Notes under the pieces: generated by a model
What the model was told of the DNA's origin: nothing
The model's database searches: none
The model's input: only the letters and a program-made list of their open reading frames with translations
Position numbers and translations under genes: made by a program
In this document: positions 9,669 to 16,564 of the stretch, in pieces
Numbering within the stretch: the first letter of the stretch is position 1
How the letters are laid out: the number at the start of each line of letters is the position of its first letter
DNA from: Alistipes sp.
Lineage (GTDB): Bacteria; Bacteroidota; Bacteroidia; Bacteroidales; Rikenellaceae
Assembly (NCBI GenBank): GCA_017623505.1
Contig: JAGAOZ010000021.1
Location: 62,001-126,000, forward strand
Reading direction: 5' to 3'
Length of the DNA: 64,000 nucleotides

Positions 9669-10760
9669 CTATACATTTATTATACAAATATCCTCCATTA
9701 TCTTGTACAATCTGTAATTCACCGCCTCGGTCATCTGTCTGTACAGCTTCGCCTGTTTTGCATCCAACTCGTCGGCGATATTATATCTATGCTGATACCA
9801 GCACCAATAGGAGTGTTTACATAGCAGAGCCATCTCTTCTATTGCCTCCACATCGAAGACATCTTCTCCACTAAACGAGTTCTGGTACGACTCCTCGGCC
9901 CACTCTCTGTTGCCATTGAGCTTCTTTGTCATTCGCTCGATTATCTCCTCTTTTGTGAGTCCGACAAACGAATCTATAAGGTTCAGGAATCGCTCCGGCG
10001 AGATGTGCTTTCCGGGCAAGCTGTTCACCCTCTCTTTGGTCTCTTGCTCGTCAATACCCACTACAATATAACGCTCCATAGCCACCTCCTCGGCACGCGC
10101 CCTCGACCACTCGGCAAAGGTGCCTGTTATATCGCTACTTTTCATCACATAGTGTAGCGGAGCATACTTGTAATACTCCAGCAGTGCGTTACATGCGTTG
10201 TTAAAATCGAACCACATGTAGTAGTCGCTATATAGGCGGTCTGCCATCACCTCATCGTCGTCATATCGGCTTATCATCTGATAATAGGCGTCGAGCACCC
10301 TGTAATGTGCCGTTATGGAGCGTATGTAGCTTGTAATATTCTCCATATATGAGCTGGCGCTGCTTGTCTGTATGGGTAGCAGTTCGACGGCATGTATAGC
10401 CATTTCGCGGTACTTTTCGTCCTCGACATATCGACCTAAGCGGCAGTTGTACTCGTCAATGCAGTCGTACATCGCTAGTAGCCACGCCATACCGTCATCT
10501 GCCGTCTCAATCATACGCATCATATCCATCATACGTTGCATCAGCCAATATGCGTGTGGGTCTATCTCTTGCAGTTCCTCATCCTCGAAGCTCCAGTAGT
10601 TGAGTTCGTCGCACGTCGATAGCATCTCCTCTTTTCTGAGGTTGAGCATCCCCTCGTCAAAGTCGTGTATGGCTATCTTCTCGCATTTAAGCTTTTTAGC
10701 CTCTGCTCCCATTGCCGACAGGAGCAACATCATCATAATAGTCAAAATACTTTTTTTCAT
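9669..10760 (-). CDS. Secreted protein of unknown function
   Basis: 363 residues with a clear Sec signal peptide (hydrophobic core about 5-17, cleavage probably after AEA near residue 21). The mature part is rich in Met, Glu, Asp and Tyr and is probably mostly helical. I recognise no catalytic motif and no family. It lies on the same strand as the caspase-sigma operon but is separated from it by 630 bp with a terminator, so it is probably not part of that transcript. Confidence 0.65.
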   Translation of the reverse strand: MKKSILTIMMMLLLSAMGAEAKKLKCEKIAIHDFDEGMLNLRKEEMLSTCDELNYWSFEDEELQEIDPHAYWLMQRMMDMMRMIETADDGMAWLLAMYDCIDEYNCRLGRYVEDEKYREMAIHAVELLPIQTSSASSYMENITSYIRSITAHYRVLDAYYQMISRYDDDEVMADRLYSDYYMWFDFNNACNALLEYYKYAPLHYVMKSSDITGTFAEWSRARAEEVAMERYIVVGIDEQETKERVNSLPGKHISPERFLNLIDSFVGLTKEEIIERMTKKLNGNREWAEESYQNSFSGEDVFDVEAIEEMALLCKHSYWCWYQHRYNIADELDAKQAKLYRQMTEAVNYRLYKIMEDICIINV

Positions 10761-10823
10761 CATTATATATGCTTTGTTACCTAGTTCTGCTAATCCCTGT
10801 GAAGCCGCATAAGCGGGTTCTAT

Positions 10824-11068: not shown

Positions 11069-11139
11069 TACCCAAGCCGAATTTCCGTGCTGATTGAGGT
11101 GTTGCAACTTTCACCTTTCAGTTTTCACTTTTTAGTTTT

Positions 11140-11222
11140 GGCAAGACATAAAGGTCTTCCCTTAGTTGCTCCCGCTCGGCATAGCTCAAGCAAGCTTGGC
11201 TCTGCCCTCGCTTACTCGCAAC
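11140..11222 (-). repeat. GTTGCGA...GGTCTTGCC repeat, copy 1 (minus)
   Basis: An 83-bp element nearly identical on the opposite strand to 22560-22642 and related to 46985-47065 and 47083-47163. It contains GTTGC...GCAAC outer arms and an AAGACCT/AGGTCTT-like hairpin. It is flanked by repeated TTTTCAGTTTTCA runs. Confidence 0.75.
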
Positions 11223-11294
11223 TTTCACTTTTCAGTTTTCAGTTTTCAGTTTTCACTTCCCCGCCTCGTCCAATTTCCACAATGCAAATCTCCG

Positions 11295-11339
11295 AAAAAA
11301 AACTCATACAACTGCAAACATATCTTGCAATTGTATGAG
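11295..11339 (-). terminator. Terminator of the caspase-sigma operon
   Basis: A 15-bp stem (11303-11317 with 11325-11339, one G-U pair) followed by a run of T on the minus strand. It lies about 50 nt beyond the TraB/GumN stop. Confidence 0.8.
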
Positions 11340-11389
11340 TTATATTCTCTGCTGTATGAAATTGCGTTGCAGCGGGTGTTTTAACCCTG

Positions 11390-12310
11390 CTACTCCATCG
11401 ATTCGACGGTGTAACCCAGCTTTTTGAGCTGATTCAATATTCCCGACTCGGTAACCAAGTGACCTGCTCCCATAATAAAGAATGTAGACTTCTCGCTCAT
11501 AATCTGTGGTATCTTCTCCATCCAGCGCAAGTTGCGGTTTACAAATAGCTCGTTGTAATCCACCGGTCCGCTCATCACTCTTGAGTCCTCTACGCTCTCG
11601 ATGATTCTTGTCAGCCCATCTATATCGTGTGCGTAGTAGGCTTCCACCAAGGCGTTAGTCTCCGTGGTAAACGTCTCCCAATTCTCCACGAGCATCATCA
11701 GCTCTGCCACCTGCTCCTCGTATGGCATCTGCGAGAAGTCCATTATACTCAGCTGGTCCTCCACGCTCTCTAAGCCGACAATATCCAACTCCTTTGCCTT
11801 AGCCTTGAGCATCAGCTGCACATCCATACTTTGGTTAGGCTTGTAGCCTGGGAGGTTGTTTGTTATATACAATATCTGTACGGAGTTAAAGAGACCTATC
11901 GGCGAGAGGTTTTCCATTCCGAATAGAGGTATTGTTGCCTCGTCATCCTCCTCTTCTCCCACGACCTTTTTGATTAGTCTATCCACCTGCCACGCCTGCT
12001 CCTCGGTGAGCAAATCCCTTATGCTTACACCCTCTGGCAGGAAGTTCATCTTCTGTGGCAGCTGTTGTATCTCGGACATTTTGCTTATCATCTCCGAGAG
12101 TGAAACCTCCCAGCAGCACTGCTCGACACTCTCCATTGCCTGGTTCACTCCCTCAATCTTCTCCACGTAGTCGTTTGGTGCTAAGTGCAACGTTCCCAAG
12201 ATGTAAGATGGCTTCTGCAAGCCGTTACCCGACACCTTGTAAAATATCTGTGCCTGACTGCCGCCTATCGTGGCAATCAACACAACAACGAGTGTTAATA
12301 GTCGTTTCAT
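11390..12310 (-). CDS. TraB/GumN family protein (predicted metalloprotease), secreted
   Basis: 306 residues with a Sec signal peptide (cleavage near SQA, residue 20). The family motifs are GTLH (39-42), GLES (179-182) and GAGHL (281-285), which supply the His and Glu residues proposed as metal ligands in TraB/GumN and the eukaryotic Tiki proteases. It probably acts in the periplasm or at the surface. It is the last gene of the minus-strand operon with the TPR protein (25-bp gap), anti-sigma-like protein, sigma factor and caspase-like peptidase. Protease activity is inferred from the superfamily. Confidence 0.82.
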   Translation of the reverse strand: MKRLLTLVVVLIATIGGSQAQIFYKVSGNGLQKPSYILGTLHLAPNDYVEKIEGVNQAMESVEQCCWEVSLSEMISKMSEIQQLPQKMNFLPEGVSIRDLLTEEQAWQVDRLIKKVVGEEEDDEATIPLFGMENLSPIGLFNSVQILYITNNLPGYKPNQSMDVQLMLKAKAKELDIVGLESVEDQLSIMDFSQMPYEEQVAELMMLVENWETFTTETNALVEAYYAHDIDGLTRIIESVEDSRVMSGPVDYNELFVNRNLRWMEKIPQIMSEKSTFFIMGAGHLVTESGILNQLKKLGYTVESME

Positions 12311-12335
12311 AGTAAATTTTGGTTAGTGGTTTGTA

Positions 12336-13967
12336 TTATTTGGCTTGCGCCTTATATTTTTTCATCAGTTTCTTGAACTTCGCCCTATTTCGTATAGGGT
12401 CCATATCGTCATCATTCTCGATATGAGCAAAAGCTCTAAAACCCCTCTCTAAGGCCATCTCCAAAGCCTCCAACGCCTCATCCGTGCGTCCCATACGACC
12501 ATACAGACAGGCCTTGTCGTAGTATACGCTGCCCCATTGGAGGTTGTTGGCCACCACCTTCTCCATCCACTCTATGGACCCCTGCTCGTCGCCCAAGAAG
12601 TAGAGTGCATAGTGGCGACAGCTGTATTTAGGATGGTTGTCTATTTGCAGGATATGCTCAAAATCTGCCATTGCCAGCTCCCTCTTGCCCTGCTTGAGGT
12701 ACTGCTCTGCGCGCATCAGATATATCTGCGGGTAGCTTTCATCGACGGCGATACCTGCATTGTAGTTTTCCATCGCTTTCGTGTCGTTGCCCATAAGCTC
12801 GTAGACAAAACCTCTCTGATAGTATGCTTGCACCATTTCGGGTTTTAGTGCCAGCACCTTGTCGTAATACTCCAACGCTTTGTTGTACTTACCCATATCC
12901 GCGTAGATTAGCCCCAGCTGAATGTAGTATGACGATTTATCCTGCTCCGAGCTTAGGCTCTCCGCCTTCAGCATCTGGCTCAACGCCTTCTCCAGCTCGC
13001 CCAAGCTGTGATATGCCAAGCCGCGCAACAGACAAATATCTGCCGACTCGCCCATATCCTTCTCCAGCACATCCAAAGCCTCTATCTCTTCGCGTGAGTA
13101 GCCCGCCACGCGGCAGAAGTCGCCCTTTATAGCTGTCAGCATCATAGCCTTATAACCTCTTTGGTCTGCTTGTAGTGCTATTCTCTTGTCCAGTTGCTGG
13201 ATTGTGTACTCCGGCATAAGCTTCATTATCTCAAGTGCCGGCTCTAAGTCGGCATCTTCCCGTCCGAAATACTCGAACATGTAATCTAACGCATCATCTA
13301 TCGCCTCCTCGCTCTGACCTGCGCTCTGACGGAGCTTCATACGCATCAAGTATGCCTCAGGGTTCACTGCACCCTCCGCAATATATATATCCAGCTGATG
13401 CTTGGCCTCCTCGGCTGCCCCCTTTGCGATTAGGTTCTCTGCCCACAGCAGTCGCGCCTCACCCATTGTGGGGTCCTCTTCGAGCAGCTGTTGCACTATC
13501 TGGTCCGACTTCTCAATATCAAACTGAGCATATATCTTTGCCAAATCGAGCATTATCATCTGTCGCTCCCACTCATTTTCCTCCTCGACGCAGAGCTCTT
13601 TGGCTTTTGTATAATCCTCTATTGCCGCTTCGCGCATCCCCATCTGCTTATGTATATCGGCACGCCACCAGTAGAGTAGTGACCGATATATAGCGTCCTC
13701 TGCCTTCCATACGCTCAGAGCCTTGTTTACATCCTCCAAAGCTTTGTCGTTCTGCCCCAGGCTGACATATATCGTAGCACGCGTAGCTAATGCCTCACAT
13801 TGGTCCGGGTTGCTCTCAAGGTGTGCATTTACCAGCTCCAGAGCCTCCTCCATTTGTCCCAATCCATGCTTCTGTTGAGCATAGTAGAGCAAATCTGTTG
13901 TATCCTCCTGTGCGAAGAGCGATGTCGAACACGCTATCGCTGCAATCAATAATAAAAATCTCTTCAT
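12336..13967 (-). CDS. Secreted TPR-repeat protein
   Basis: About 543 residues with a Sec signal peptide (cleavage near LFAQ, residue 20). The rest is tetratricopeptide-like 34-residue helical hairpins from about residue 20 to the C-terminus, with recurrent A-Y-x-x-R/L-G and P-E/D-x-A patterns, for example KALEYYDKVLALKPEM. A second start lies two codons upstream. TPR proteins are scaffolds, and nothing suggests enzymatic activity. It lies between the anti-sigma-like gene (85-bp gap) and the TraB/GumN gene (25-bp gap), so it may bridge partners in the envelope (inference). Confidence 0.82.
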   Translation of the reverse strand: MKRFLLLIAAIACSTSLFAQEDTTDLLYYAQQKHGLGQMEEALELVNAHLESNPDQCEALATRATIYVSLGQNDKALEDVNKALSVWKAEDAIYRSLLYWWRADIHKQMGMREAAIEDYTKAKELCVEEENEWERQMIMLDLAKIYAQFDIEKSDQIVQQLLEEDPTMGEARLLWAENLIAKGAAEEAKHQLDIYIAEGAVNPEAYLMRMKLRQSAGQSEEAIDDALDYMFEYFGREDADLEPALEIMKLMPEYTIQQLDKRIALQADQRGYKAMMLTAIKGDFCRVAGYSREEIEALDVLEKDMGESADICLLRGLAYHSLGELEKALSQMLKAESLSSEQDKSSYYIQLGLIYADMGKYNKALEYYDKVLALKPEMVQAYYQRGFVYELMGNDTKAMENYNAGIAVDESYPQIYLMRAEQYLKQGKRELAMADFEHILQIDNHPKYSCRHYALYFLGDEQGSIEWMEKVVANNLQWGSVYYDKACLYGRMGRTDEALEALEMALERGFRAFAHIENDDDMDPIRNRAKFKKLMKKYKAQAK

Positions 13968-14058
13968 AGTCATCTCGATATTTGGTTACTTTCTGCCTAT
14001 TTATCGTAATAGGCCCCAAAAGGTAACCACACTATTTTTCTTCGAGGTAAAACAGCTT

Positions 14059-14721
14059 CTAAAGCTCGTCGAGTGCCTGTTGAGCCTCTTCGCGGTATTC
14101 GCTCTCAGAGGCGGCTATCTCTTTCAGCAGTTTGCGAGCCTGCCACCACTCTCCCTGTCGCATCAAGGTAAGTGTCTTTAGCCATAGCAGATGGTCACGC
14201 TCTATCTCATACTCTATGCGGGCCTGCGCCTGTTGCTCTGGGTGCGGGTCGTCGCAGACAAAAGCTCTCTGCTCCGCCTTTTCGATAAGCTCCAAAGTCT
14301 TTTCATACTCTCCACTCTCAAATGCCGAAGTAATCTGCGAGTCTACAATCTCTCCACCACGTGCCGTCGTGTAGTCATACGATACCCCCATCGCATAGCT
14401 TCTGTAAGCATCCACCTTCGCATCGTGGTATATGAAGCCACCGATAACCAAGCATCCTGCAACGGCGCAGGTCAGCCAGCCCCATACCCAACCTCTGCGG
14501 CTACGTTGCTTTGCTGCTGCCTTCTGCTCTGCGGCTATCTCCTCTTCGAGGGCTTGCAGATGCGCCTTTGCCCCTTTTAGCTTGAGTGAGGTGACAATGT
14601 CGCGGTGCAGAGCCACCTGCTCCCTAAGCGCAACATCCTCTTCGAGCTGTTTGTCGAAGAGCTCTCGCTCCTGTTGGCTCATCTGGCCTGTCAAATATCT
14701 ATCTATACTCTCCTGATTCAT
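14059..14721 (-). CDS. Single-pass membrane protein, probable anti-sigma factor
   Basis: 220 residues. The N-terminal 75 residues are cytoplasmic, Glu/Gln-rich and helical, starting MNQESIDRYLTGQMSQQERE, which resembles the start of many Bacteroidota anti-sigma and sigma-partner proteins. One transmembrane helix follows (79-98), then a roughly 120-residue extracytoplasmic helical part with TPR-like character. No zinc-binding HxxxCxxC motif is visible. The gene overlaps the sigma factor gene by 23 bp, suggesting tight translational coupling. Anti-sigma function is inferred from topology and this overlap. Confidence 0.7.
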   Translation of the reverse strand: MNQESIDRYLTGQMSQQERELFDKQLEEDVALREQVALHRDIVTSLKLKGAKAHLQALEEEIAAEQKAAAKQRSRRGWVWGWLTCAVAGCLVIGGFIYHDAKVDAYRSYAMGVSYDYTTARGGEIVDSQITSAFESGEYEKTLELIEKAEQRAFVCDDPHPEQQAQARIEYEIERDHLLWLKTLTLMRQGEWWQARKLLKEIAASESEYREEAQQALDEL

Positions 14722-15283
14722 CTCTTTGTAGTTGTTTTGTTATGTAAACCTTCAGTTTTGTCATACACTTACTTTTCTGTGTCTTTGCCGAGTCGGGGTT
14801 GTTGTAACCGCACTCCTGAGCTATCTCCTGCATGCTCTTCTGCTCCCAATAAAACTTTAGCAGAATGGTGTTACACGGCTCGGTCATCTTTGCCACGGCT
14901 TGTCGGATTACCACCTCCCGTTCACTTGGCTCCTCCTCTTGCCATGGCAGCTTATCGTGTATGTAGTCAATGTTTTCGATGAAATCTCTGCGTCGCTTAA
15001 ACTCGCGGCTGCGATACATATCTACGAGTTTGTTGCGTCCGATGCAGAACAGATAGGTCTTTAGCGAGGCGTGCGTCAGTTGCTCTACGGTCAGCCTACC
15101 TTTTATTATATTCTCGTATAGAGCCACACACGCATCCTGATATAGGTCGATTATTGTATCATCCCCTCCCCGAAAACTCTTCCGCACATAGCCGATGAAC
15201 TCCGCGCGGTACATATTGTACAGCTCGGTAAAGGCTCTCTGGTTGCCCTCGGCTATTTCTCGTATTATCTGCGGGTCTGTCAT
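14699..15283 (-). CDS. ECF-type RNA polymerase sigma factor
   Basis: 194 residues. Region 2 spans about 20-95 (the ENIIKGRL...SLKTYLFCIGRNKLVDMYR segment includes the -10 recognition helix). Region 4 spans about 130-185, with helix-turn-helix residues around SMQEIAQECGYNNPDSAKTQ. The spacing suits an ECF sigma factor. It starts 3 nt after the caspase-like gene stops and overlaps the anti-sigma-like gene by 23 bp, so the five genes form one operon. It may control its own operon; the box at 16202-16209 looks housekeeping-like. Confidence 0.88.
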   Translation of the reverse strand: MTDPQIIREIAEGNQRAFTELYNMYRAEFIGYVRKSFRGGDDTIIDLYQDACVALYENIIKGRLTVEQLTHASLKTYLFCIGRNKLVDMYRSREFKRRRDFIENIDYIHDKLPWQEEEPSEREVVIRQAVAKMTEPCNTILLKFYWEQKSMQEIAQECGYNNPDSAKTQKSKCMTKLKVYITKQLQRDESGEYR

Positions 15284-15286
15284 AAC

Positions 15287-16180
15287 TTAAAATATAGGTT
15301 TGTCCTTTAGGCGGAGGTTGTAATCGACGTTTGGTGTTTGGCGATAACGTTTTCCGGGTAGCGGCATCATGTTGTATAGCTGGCGTATACGTTGCTCCAA
15401 CTCGCTGATATTCATCTTTGTCGCCAAGACGCTTGAGAGCGCATAGCTCAGTCGTCCGTAACGTGTACCATCCTGCATCTTGTACTCAAAGTTTTGCTCA
15501 TGCTCAAGGCATGCGCTTATACATACCCATCTTACGTCCACAGGCTCAAACTGCTCTTTATTTTCGGGATGCAGTATATCGAAACGGTTTGCCGTACCAC
15601 GCACAAACAGCTCTTCTTCGACCTCTTCGTCAGCCTCTCCGCGTGTTCCGCCTCCGCTGTGACACGCATCTAATACAACGAGTATCGAGCCCCTCTCGCC
15701 GATACAATCTTTGAGCTGCGAGAGTATGTTGTTCAACTCGTCATCTACGATGTGATTCTCGCCATCGTAACCTCCGGCATTATCTATCCGTGCATCGTAA
15801 GGCACAATCGACTCGTCCCAGAAATCCAACGAATCGAGCAACCTCTCGTCGCCATTTATATCTGTTATCTGCTGTCCGTGACCTGAGAAATGGAAATATA
15901 TCATATCCCCCTCCGATGCACGCTCCGTAAGCGATAGTAGGGCGTTGCGGATATTCTGTTTTGTTGCCTGGGCATCACTCAGCGTTGTTATGTTCTGCTC
16001 GCTTATGCCTACACGATGTAGCACCGGCACAATCAACTCTATATCGTTTGTACCTGAGAGTTTACTCCATCCCGACTCCTGAGCATAATCCGATATACCG
16101 ACCACCACAGCCCACTTTTGTTGAGCTTGAGCCGATAACACACCGAGTGTGCAACAGATTATCGTCAGTAGTTTTCGCAT
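15287..16180 (-). CDS. Secreted caspase-like (C14/metacaspase) peptidase
   Basis: 297 residues from the start at 16180, with a Sec signal peptide cleaved near AQA (residue 19). The p20-type caspase fold is clear: beta-1 WAVVVGISDY, the catalytic His in HFSGHGQ (His101) and the catalytic Cys in LDACHSGG (Cys173). Both dyad residues are present, so it is probably active. Acidic insertions around GEADEEVEEE may be calcium-binding or regulatory (inference). It is first in a five-gene operon with sigma, anti-sigma-like, TPR and TraB/GumN genes. Export distinguishes it from cytoplasmic caspases of defence systems. Confidence 0.85.
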   Translation of the reverse strand: MRKLLTIICCTLGVLSAQAQQKWAVVVGISDYAQESGWSKLSGTNDIELIVPVLHRVGISEQNITTLSDAQATKQNIRNALLSLTERASEGDMIYFHFSGHGQQITDINGDERLLDSLDFWDESIVPYDARIDNAGGYDGENHIVDDELNNILSQLKDCIGERGSILVVLDACHSGGGTRGEADEEVEEELFVRGTANRFDILHPENKEQFEPVDVRWVCISACLEHEQNFEYKMQDGTRYGRLSYALSSVLATKMNISELEQRIRQLYNMMPLPGKRYRQTPNVDYNLRLKDKPIF

Positions 16181-16201
16181 GCTTGAGTTCTGTTTAATAG
16201 A

Positions 16202-16209
16202 CAAATATA
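16202..16209 (-). promoter_or_regulatory. -7 box for the caspase-sigma operon
   Basis: TATATTTG on the minus strand, about 20 nt before the caspase start codon. No TTTG at standard spacing was found. Confidence 0.45.
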
Positions 16210-16333
16210 CAAAAAATTAACGTAGTTCTTTACCACATTATTGCAAAAACCACATTTTTCCTCCAAAAAGCTTTTACAAACTAAAATGTGAAAACTGAAA
16301 ACTGAGAACTGAAAACTAAATTTTGAATTGTAA

Positions 16334-16469: not shown

Positions 16470-16492
16470 TTGTTGGATTTTATTCATATCAG

Positions 16493-16564
16493 AGGTCTGA
16501 AGCGGATTCGAACCGCTGTAGACGGTTTTGCAGACCGTTGGTTAAGCCACTCGCCCATCAGACC
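16493..16564 (-). tRNA. tRNA-Cys (GCA)
   Basis: A 72-nt tRNA. It has a 7-bp acceptor stem GGTCTGA/TCAGACC, anticodon loop CTGCAAA with anticodon GCA, T-arm GCGGTTCGAATCCGC and the Cys-typical U73 discriminator. CCA is not encoded. Confidence 0.95.

Follow-up and report, generated by a model that had tools for sequence, protein, structure and literature searches.

Organization of the locus

The window analyzed here, a 64,000-nucleotide stretch of Alistipes sp. DNA (contig JAGAOZ010000021.1, positions 62,001 to 126,000), belongs to a genome of 2.0 Mb in 29 contigs and carries five closely spaced genes on its minus strand. In the direction of transcription, these encode an exported C14 caspase/metacaspase-like peptidase of 297 amino acids (aa) (15287..16180, from an ATG start, the listed open reading frame [ORF] beginning at a TTG further upstream), an extracytoplasmic function (ECF) sigma factor of 194 aa (14699..15283), an anti-sigma factor of 220 aa with one transmembrane (TM) helix (14059..14721), an exported tetratricopeptide repeat (TPR) protein of 545 aa with many TPR matches (12336..13973), and an exported TraB/PrgY/GumN protein of 306 aa (11390..12310). 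A gap of 3 nucleotides (nt) separates the caspase and sigma genes, the sigma and anti-sigma genes overlap by 23 bp, and the following intervals measure 85 nt (anti-sigma to TPR) and 25 nt (TPR to TraB). The initial annotation of this DNA had located the five genes, the catalytic pair of the caspase, the 3-nt gap, the overlap, and a terminator-like hairpin, all of which were verified. In the following, we present evidence that the first three genes form a conserved core, in which the peptidase may cut the anti-sigma factor at a candidate periplasmic Arg-Gly bond.

The caspase-like peptidase

The C14 profile matches the peptidase with 75.3 bits (cut-off, 21.4), and this is the only C14 match in the genome. 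The predicted structure (predicted local distance difference test [pLDDT], 89; predicted template modeling score [pTM], 0.88) has metacaspase folds as its top structure matches. The PADLOC caspase model matches the domain with an E value of 1.4e-20, and the caspase_w_EACC1 model scores 35.2 against a cut-off of 140, which leaves the protein outside EACC1. Only relatives below 60% identity appeared among the matches listed in a plasmid search.

Both catalytic residues, H101 (codon 15878-15880) and C173 (codon 15662-15664), are intact in the window and occur in 54/54 aligned caspases. The same alignment shows S99, D171, and N230 in all 54 sequences and E232 in 53 of them, and these residues correspond, judged by the alignment and by their spacing from the catalytic residues, to Ser84, Asp137, Ser350, and Asp352 of AtMC4. 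According to the excerpt of the source (here and below, published systems are cited from excerpts of the respective papers), this AtMC4 pocket holds Lys225, the first self-cleavage site (PMC7206013). Judging from these conserved positions, the caspases appear to carry an S1 pocket for basic residues of the Arg/Lys type. Furthermore, an R194-G195 pair (R194 codon, 15599-15601), invariant in the 54 caspases, lies in the post-Cys loop 21 residues past the catalytic Cys and, by its position, would occupy the region where metacaspases cleave themselves. In particular, CgMCA-I is cut, among other sites, at Lys263, 25 residues beyond Cys238 (PMC9622860), and TbMCA2, whose specificity is for Arg at P1, is cut after Lys55 and Lys268 (PMC12914765). 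AtMC4, TbMCA2, and CgMCA-I share with the caspase described here the fold, the His-Cys dyad, the acidic S1 pocket, and the basic post-Cys residue, whereas the latter, a predicted peptidase, is an exported bacterial protein whose gene shares its operon with that of a sigma factor.

Conservation of the core

The census of gene neighborhoods covered the best 80 of 485 caspase relatives, ranked by caspase likeness in a scan with 12 aligned caspases. Seventy-nine loci were usable (L195, in which no caspase ORF was called, was dropped), 69 of them with short caspases (360 aa or less) and 10 with long ones. ORFs were called with our own greedy procedure and assigned with hidden Markov models seeded on the window proteins (on L055 in the case of CHAT); since opposite-strand ORFs were sometimes wrongly chosen, the census counts are lower bounds. 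Near-identical sequences were retained in the census, and some loci and genomes are duplicate records of one another (L132 and G250, L149 and G374, L155 and G437, L163 and G440, L177 and G102, and L191 and G317).

In 37 of the 69 short-caspase loci, a sigma gene lies immediately downstream on the same strand, and the order caspase-sigma-anti-sigma was found in 31; within five genes of the caspase, sigma genes occur in 48 loci, CHAT genes in 48, and either of the two in 63. A sigma gene also lies immediately downstream in 4 of the 10 loci with long caspases. ECF genes are sparse (the ECF sigma model has eight matches in the 2.0-Mb genome), and we estimate that adjacency by chance should occur at about 1 in 200 genes. 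Moreover, across the 32 loci that contain the trio, window included, the three distance matrices are correlated with a Mantel r of 0.82 to 0.88, and none of 2000 permutations reached as high a value. The caspase, the sigma factor, and the anti-sigma factor belong together well beyond close relatives, and the conserved core consists of an exported C14 peptidase, an ECF sigma factor, and a one-TM anti-sigma factor, often accompanied by a TPR-CHAT gene. Of the five families combined in the initial annotation, it is this core that recurs in many loci, while the full set does not.

Caspase, sigma, anti-sigma, and CHAT genes occur in exactly this order in G102 and G250, and the closest relative of the caspase, in a Rikenellaceae metagenome-assembled genome (L124; 49%), has the three-gene core, with no TPR, CHAT, or TraB matches in the available stretch. 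The module is also present in Parabacteroides distasonis An897 (L201). Within the order, caspase matches at an E value of 1e-15 or lower were found in 36/393 genomes, the window genome included. Among 120 related genomes, again including that of the window, 7 have a caspase match (E ≤ 1e-8), 5 an anti-sigma match (E ≤ 1e-5), 15 a sigma match and 18 a TraB match (both E ≤ 1e-10), and 7 a match to the TPR protein (E ≤ 1e-20). The module is rare within the genus, where G048 is the only further genome with a caspase match; its three genes (L051, 11062-12471) follow the same order but are disrupted by stop codons and a change of frame, as befits a decaying module. Another genome of the genus, G047, carries the sigma, anti-sigma, and TPR-CHAT genes and gave no caspase match.

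The anti-sigma factor and its linker arginine

The sigma factor matches the sigma70-ECF model TIGR02937 with 64.5 bits (cut-off, 42.9), and the Pfam model of sigma region 4 falls below its cut-off (21.7 versus 25.7). For the protein encoded directly behind it, the match to NF052375 has an E value of 3.7e-9 but reaches only 36.9 bits versus a cut-off of 100, and its identity as an anti-sigma factor rests on architecture, gene position, and co-inheritance; binding and inhibition of the sigma factor are predicted. The protein comprises an N-terminal anti-sigma-like domain, a single TM helix (residues ~79 to 97), a linker (112 to 122), and TPR-like C-terminal helices. In the predicted structure, a long helix extends to residue 113 and the TPR-like helices begin at residue 125, and the only stretch with a pLDDT below 50 is that of residues 112 to 122. 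A Foldseek search with the model gave no match at an E value of 0.001 or lower, TPR proteins recurring among the weak ones.

The low-confidence stretch contains R121-G122 (14356..14361, minus strand; R121 codon, 14359-14361, with G122 next), which we regard as the candidate position of a site-1 cleavage. In an alignment of 43 anti-sigma factors, only four columns are at least 90% conserved; two correspond to an Ala-Ala pair of the TM helix (A in 40 and 40 of the 43 rows; Ala-Gly in the window protein) and one to the linker Arg (R in 40, K in 2, L in 1). The distance from this Arg to the TM helix has a median of 25 residues, and its flanks are variable. Among 48 non-redundant anti-sigma factors from caspase loci, RG occurs 16 to 34 residues past the TM helix in 35 (shuffled sequences: mean, 2.0; largest, 8 in 1000 runs), and R[GSDA] occurs there in 43 (mean, 10.5; largest, 19); in other 20-aa windows of the same 48 proteins, RG was counted in 14 of 354. 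Near-identical anti-sigma factors were filtered out of these counts, as they were from those of regions without C14 and of the residue following the Arg.

A set of five proteins with neither C14 nor CHAT, none of which has R[GSDA] in the 16-to-34 interval, was discarded as a control, four of them (L062, L063, L065, and L147) being read as other proteins; in the fifth (L067), which lies at the end of a contig, RG occurs at position 35. No true negative control set was found among the loci examined. The anti-sigma factors of L058 (194-1285) and L316 show an apparent fused trypsin-like domain and have no Arg in the usual interval; in L316, RS is found at position 37.

A model for sigma release and its alternatives

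We propose that the core is an envelope signaling switch, in which the caspase would first cut the anti-sigma factor on its periplasmic side and RseP-type proteolysis would then free the sigma factor; we assign to this reading a probability of roughly 0.48. The membrane anti-sigma factor would retain its ECF partner in the cytoplasm and expose its TPR-like domain to the periplasm on a flexible linker. The exported caspase would be an Arg-specific zymogen of the metacaspase type, activated in the periplasm, probably by self-cleavage at R194-G195. Once active, it would cut the R121-G122 bond of the linker, roughly 25 residues beyond the membrane, and the shortened stub could become the substrate of an RseP-type site-2 protease. 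The freed sigma factor would transcribe its regulon, to which this operon likely belongs, with the TPR protein as a probable sensor or scaffold and the TraB/GumN protein as a possible accessory. The genome has one match to the M50 site-2 protease family (PF02163, 180.8 bits, G000:C6), which is a weak test, the family being present also in 14/14 control genomes. The initial annotation had suggested that periplasmic proteolysis drives sigma release; the candidate cleavage site in the anti-sigma linker makes this plausible and the core is conserved, whereas the participation of TraB/GumN and of a five-gene unit finds no support.

Several observations weigh against the caspase as the cutting enzyme. 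The anti-sigma family exceeds the caspase loci, with matches in 159/386 genomes. We examined 83 regions without C14 (80 plus 3), the 80 being drawn from the higher-scoring anti-sigma matches with known C14 loci left out, so that their lack of C14 is partly a matter of selection. In these regions, R[GSDA] is kept in 67 of 71 non-redundant anti-sigma factors, namely, in 41/43 of those with a CHAT gene within seven genes and in 26/28 of those without. The linker Arg is thus a trait of the anti-sigma family and agrees with clan CD proteases in general, and the idea of a C14-specific Arg was weakened once the wider family showed it too. Conversely, R[GSDA] is absent in 5/37 anti-sigma factors of loci with both C14 and CHAT, a count from which only identical rows were removed. 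No sigma gene lies within five genes in 21 of the 69 short-caspase loci, and the sigma pair is oppositely oriented in a few caspase loci. As for the proposed self-cleavage, basic residues at metacaspase maturation sites are not mandatory in vitro, according to the excerpted source (PMC9622860), and R194 may be structural because it is modeled with fair confidence (block mean, 84). Finally, 12 genomes have an anti-sigma match with neither CHAT nor C14 found, in assemblies that are possibly incomplete; of the four read, the Arg is kept in three (L236, L262, and L317), the fourth (L316) having none in the 16-to-34 interval.

The strongest alternative, which we nevertheless consider rather unlikely, holds that the Arg marks the site-1 cut but that the cutting is done by a CHAT protease, whose gene adjoins the sigma/anti-sigma pair in many relatives and lies in trans in the present genome; the C14 peptidase would then be a paralogous partner, an activator, or a target of CHAT. 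Besides the retention of the Arg in regions without C14, including those with a CHAT gene nearby, this explanation draws on the co-occurrence of the two families in 386 genomes (both in 145, anti-sigma only in 14, CHAT only in 61, neither in 166), a comparison that ignores kinship, assumes that both searches drew the same 386 genomes, and includes many weaker anti-sigma matches spanning the C-terminal half only; of the 206 genomes with CHAT, 205 score above the family cut-off. A CHAT protease is, moreover, a known cutter of an anti-sigma factor in type III-E systems, as described in the excerpted source (PMC10028731). The single CHAT match of the window genome (G000:C9, 5557-7539; L314) encodes 660 aa with a signal-peptide-like start and is itself a potential cutter of the anti-sigma factor; no sigma match was found within the 19-kb stretch around it, and apparently ribosomal small genes lie downstream of it. 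A CHAT gene occurs in 25/26 genomes of other families with the anti-sigma factor (mostly chosen for loci that lack a CHAT neighbor), and, within the genus, in the window genome and G047, not in G048 with its broken copy, and in 2/11 genomes without the anti-sigma factor. Against this explanation, and pointing to C14 itself, R[GSDA] is kept in 19/19 and RG in 17/19 anti-sigma factors of C14 loci without CHAT within six genes (only identical rows removed), CHAT elsewhere in those genomes mostly not having been looked for. The residue after the Arg, furthermore, is Gly in 34/44 sites of C14 context versus 18/70 of the others, where Ser leads with 44 (p 9e-8, kinship ignored), and this preference matches the Arg-Gly of the caspase itself. 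A wider formulation, in which caspase-fold proteases of both kinds (C14 and CHAT) inactivate a large family of membrane anti-sigma factors across Bacteroidota by cutting one conserved Arg-Gly/Ser bond some 25 residues beyond the membrane, seems to us evenly poised between true and false.

Less probable still is that the caspase is an effector of the sigma regulon, such as a stress- or conflict-triggered periplasmic protease that does not act on the anti-sigma factor, an HtrA-like or C11 protease making the first cut. Co-transcription with the sigma gene would fit both this account and the proposed switch, the PADLOC match agrees with it, and our own motif search found exported trypsin-like proteases in 15/79 loci, near the caspase in L142, L144, L138, L141, L147, and others. 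However, no trypsin-like family was found among the five window proteins, and the trypsin-fused anti-sigma factors lack the Arg in its usual interval, as do some unfused ones. We consider it highly improbable that the linker Arg serves in structure or docking and is not a cleavage site. Although family members that have no clan CD gene nearby retain it, it lies in the sole stretch with a pLDDT below 50, its distance from the membrane hardly varies, and its flanks are variable.

TPR and TraB/GumN genes, transcription, and flanking features

The last gene product matches the TraB_PrgY_gumN profile with 171.9 bits (cut-off, 26.8) and has two intact GxxH motifs. A TraB/GumN relative was found in 0/79 of the named caspase loci and in 0/80 of the further anti-sigma regions; G091, G098, and G102 have both caspase and TraB on different contigs, and in two genomes of the genus (G040 and G041) TraB stands behind a gene whose start reads as an aspartokinase. 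TraB/GumN was accordingly rejected as a core member, together with the five genes as a conserved unit, and its earlier assignment to the system was not borne out. The TPR protein, likewise named as a partner, is variable in the relatives, and these commonly carry a TPR-CHAT gene in its place. Both genes look like lineage-specific additions. Proteins of about 224 to 241 aa with signal-peptide-like starts occur in several of the loci with trypsin-like proteases.

The initial annotation took the five genes to form one operon, whereas the 85-nt gap between the anti-sigma and TPR genes contains a hairpin (13983..14029, minus strand; -22 kcal/mol, z of -2.5 in the folding of a 93-nt stretch) and makes a single transcript over all five genes uncertain. 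The 5' arm of this hairpin, a possible attenuator or operator, is present once in the window. Behind TraB, a terminator scan indicated an intrinsic-terminator-like hairpin (11301..11341, minus strand). The promoter box reported before the caspase gene is, on reading of the sequence, a weak resemblance of TATATTTG (minus strand, 16209-16202) to the Bacteroidota -7 box, whose consensus we take to be TAnnTTTG; a scan covering sigma-70 patterns only listed none on the minus strand at 16202-16209.

On either side of the operon, and on opposite strands, lie AAACTGA heptad repeats (11109-11258 and 16278-16319); a 16-mer has 14 matches in the window versus 0.02 expected. A tRNA-Cys gene (16492-16564) adjoins the operon, which, together with the patchy distribution of the module, hints at an accessory insertion site. 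Past the terminator, a 364-aa protein with a signal-peptide-like start (9669-10763) matched no family above its cut-off.

Relation to known systems and significance

In type III-E CRISPR systems, the TPR-CHAT caspase-fold protease Csx29 cuts the anti-sigma factor Csx30, which is proposed to free the ECF factor CASP-sigma (PMC10028731). As in the module described here, a caspase-fold protease and TPR repeats are linked to anti-sigma cutting. Different from it, Csx29 is activated by RNA and bound to Cas7-11, while here the peptidase and the TPR protein are separate and exported, and Csx30 was purified as a soluble protein, while here the anti-sigma factor has a TM helix. Profile scans of the five window proteins detected no Cas7-11 or TPR-CHAT family among them. 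RseA, in turn, is a one-TM anti-sigma factor that undergoes a periplasmic site-1 cut followed by the action of a site-2 protease (PMC7728848, PMC10024687). The bond cleaved in RseA lies between Ala108 and Cys109, and the anti-sigma factors considered here have the nearly invariant Ala-Ala in the TM helix; the site-1 enzyme of RseA is the serine protease DegS, in contrast to the caspase-family cysteine peptidase proposed here. Proteolytic activation or control has also been proposed for the EACC2 caspase/ECF sigma/TPR neighborhoods and for CHAT-linked ECF54 (PMC8195603, PMC8999054). These share with our module the links between caspase or CHAT, ECF, and TPR genes; the EACC2 systems carry other partner domains, and the excerpts give no anti-sigma cut site for EACC2 or ECF54.

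The relief of an ECF sigma factor by a caspase-fold protease (Csx29/Csx30), the site-1/site-2 proteolysis of RseA, and the caspase/CHAT-ECF neighborhoods are, thus, already known. In searches of open-licence PMC literature, we found no description of a membrane anti-sigma factor whose site-1 protease belongs to the caspase family, or of this linker Arg.

Relatives of caspases are common in bacteria, and, to our knowledge, few of their physiological substrates are known. For a widespread group of these enzymes, the present analysis points to a likely substrate and to a single bond in it, and it ties them to transcriptional signaling rather than to cell death. The occurrence of the module in P. 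distasonis An897 makes it testable in a named strain. If the proposed switch is correct, it would extend the logic of caspase-fold proteases and anti-sigma factors from CRISPR-linked systems to the periplasm, and caspases would be site-1 proteases of bacterial envelope signaling, in which the activation site of the enzyme resembles its target.

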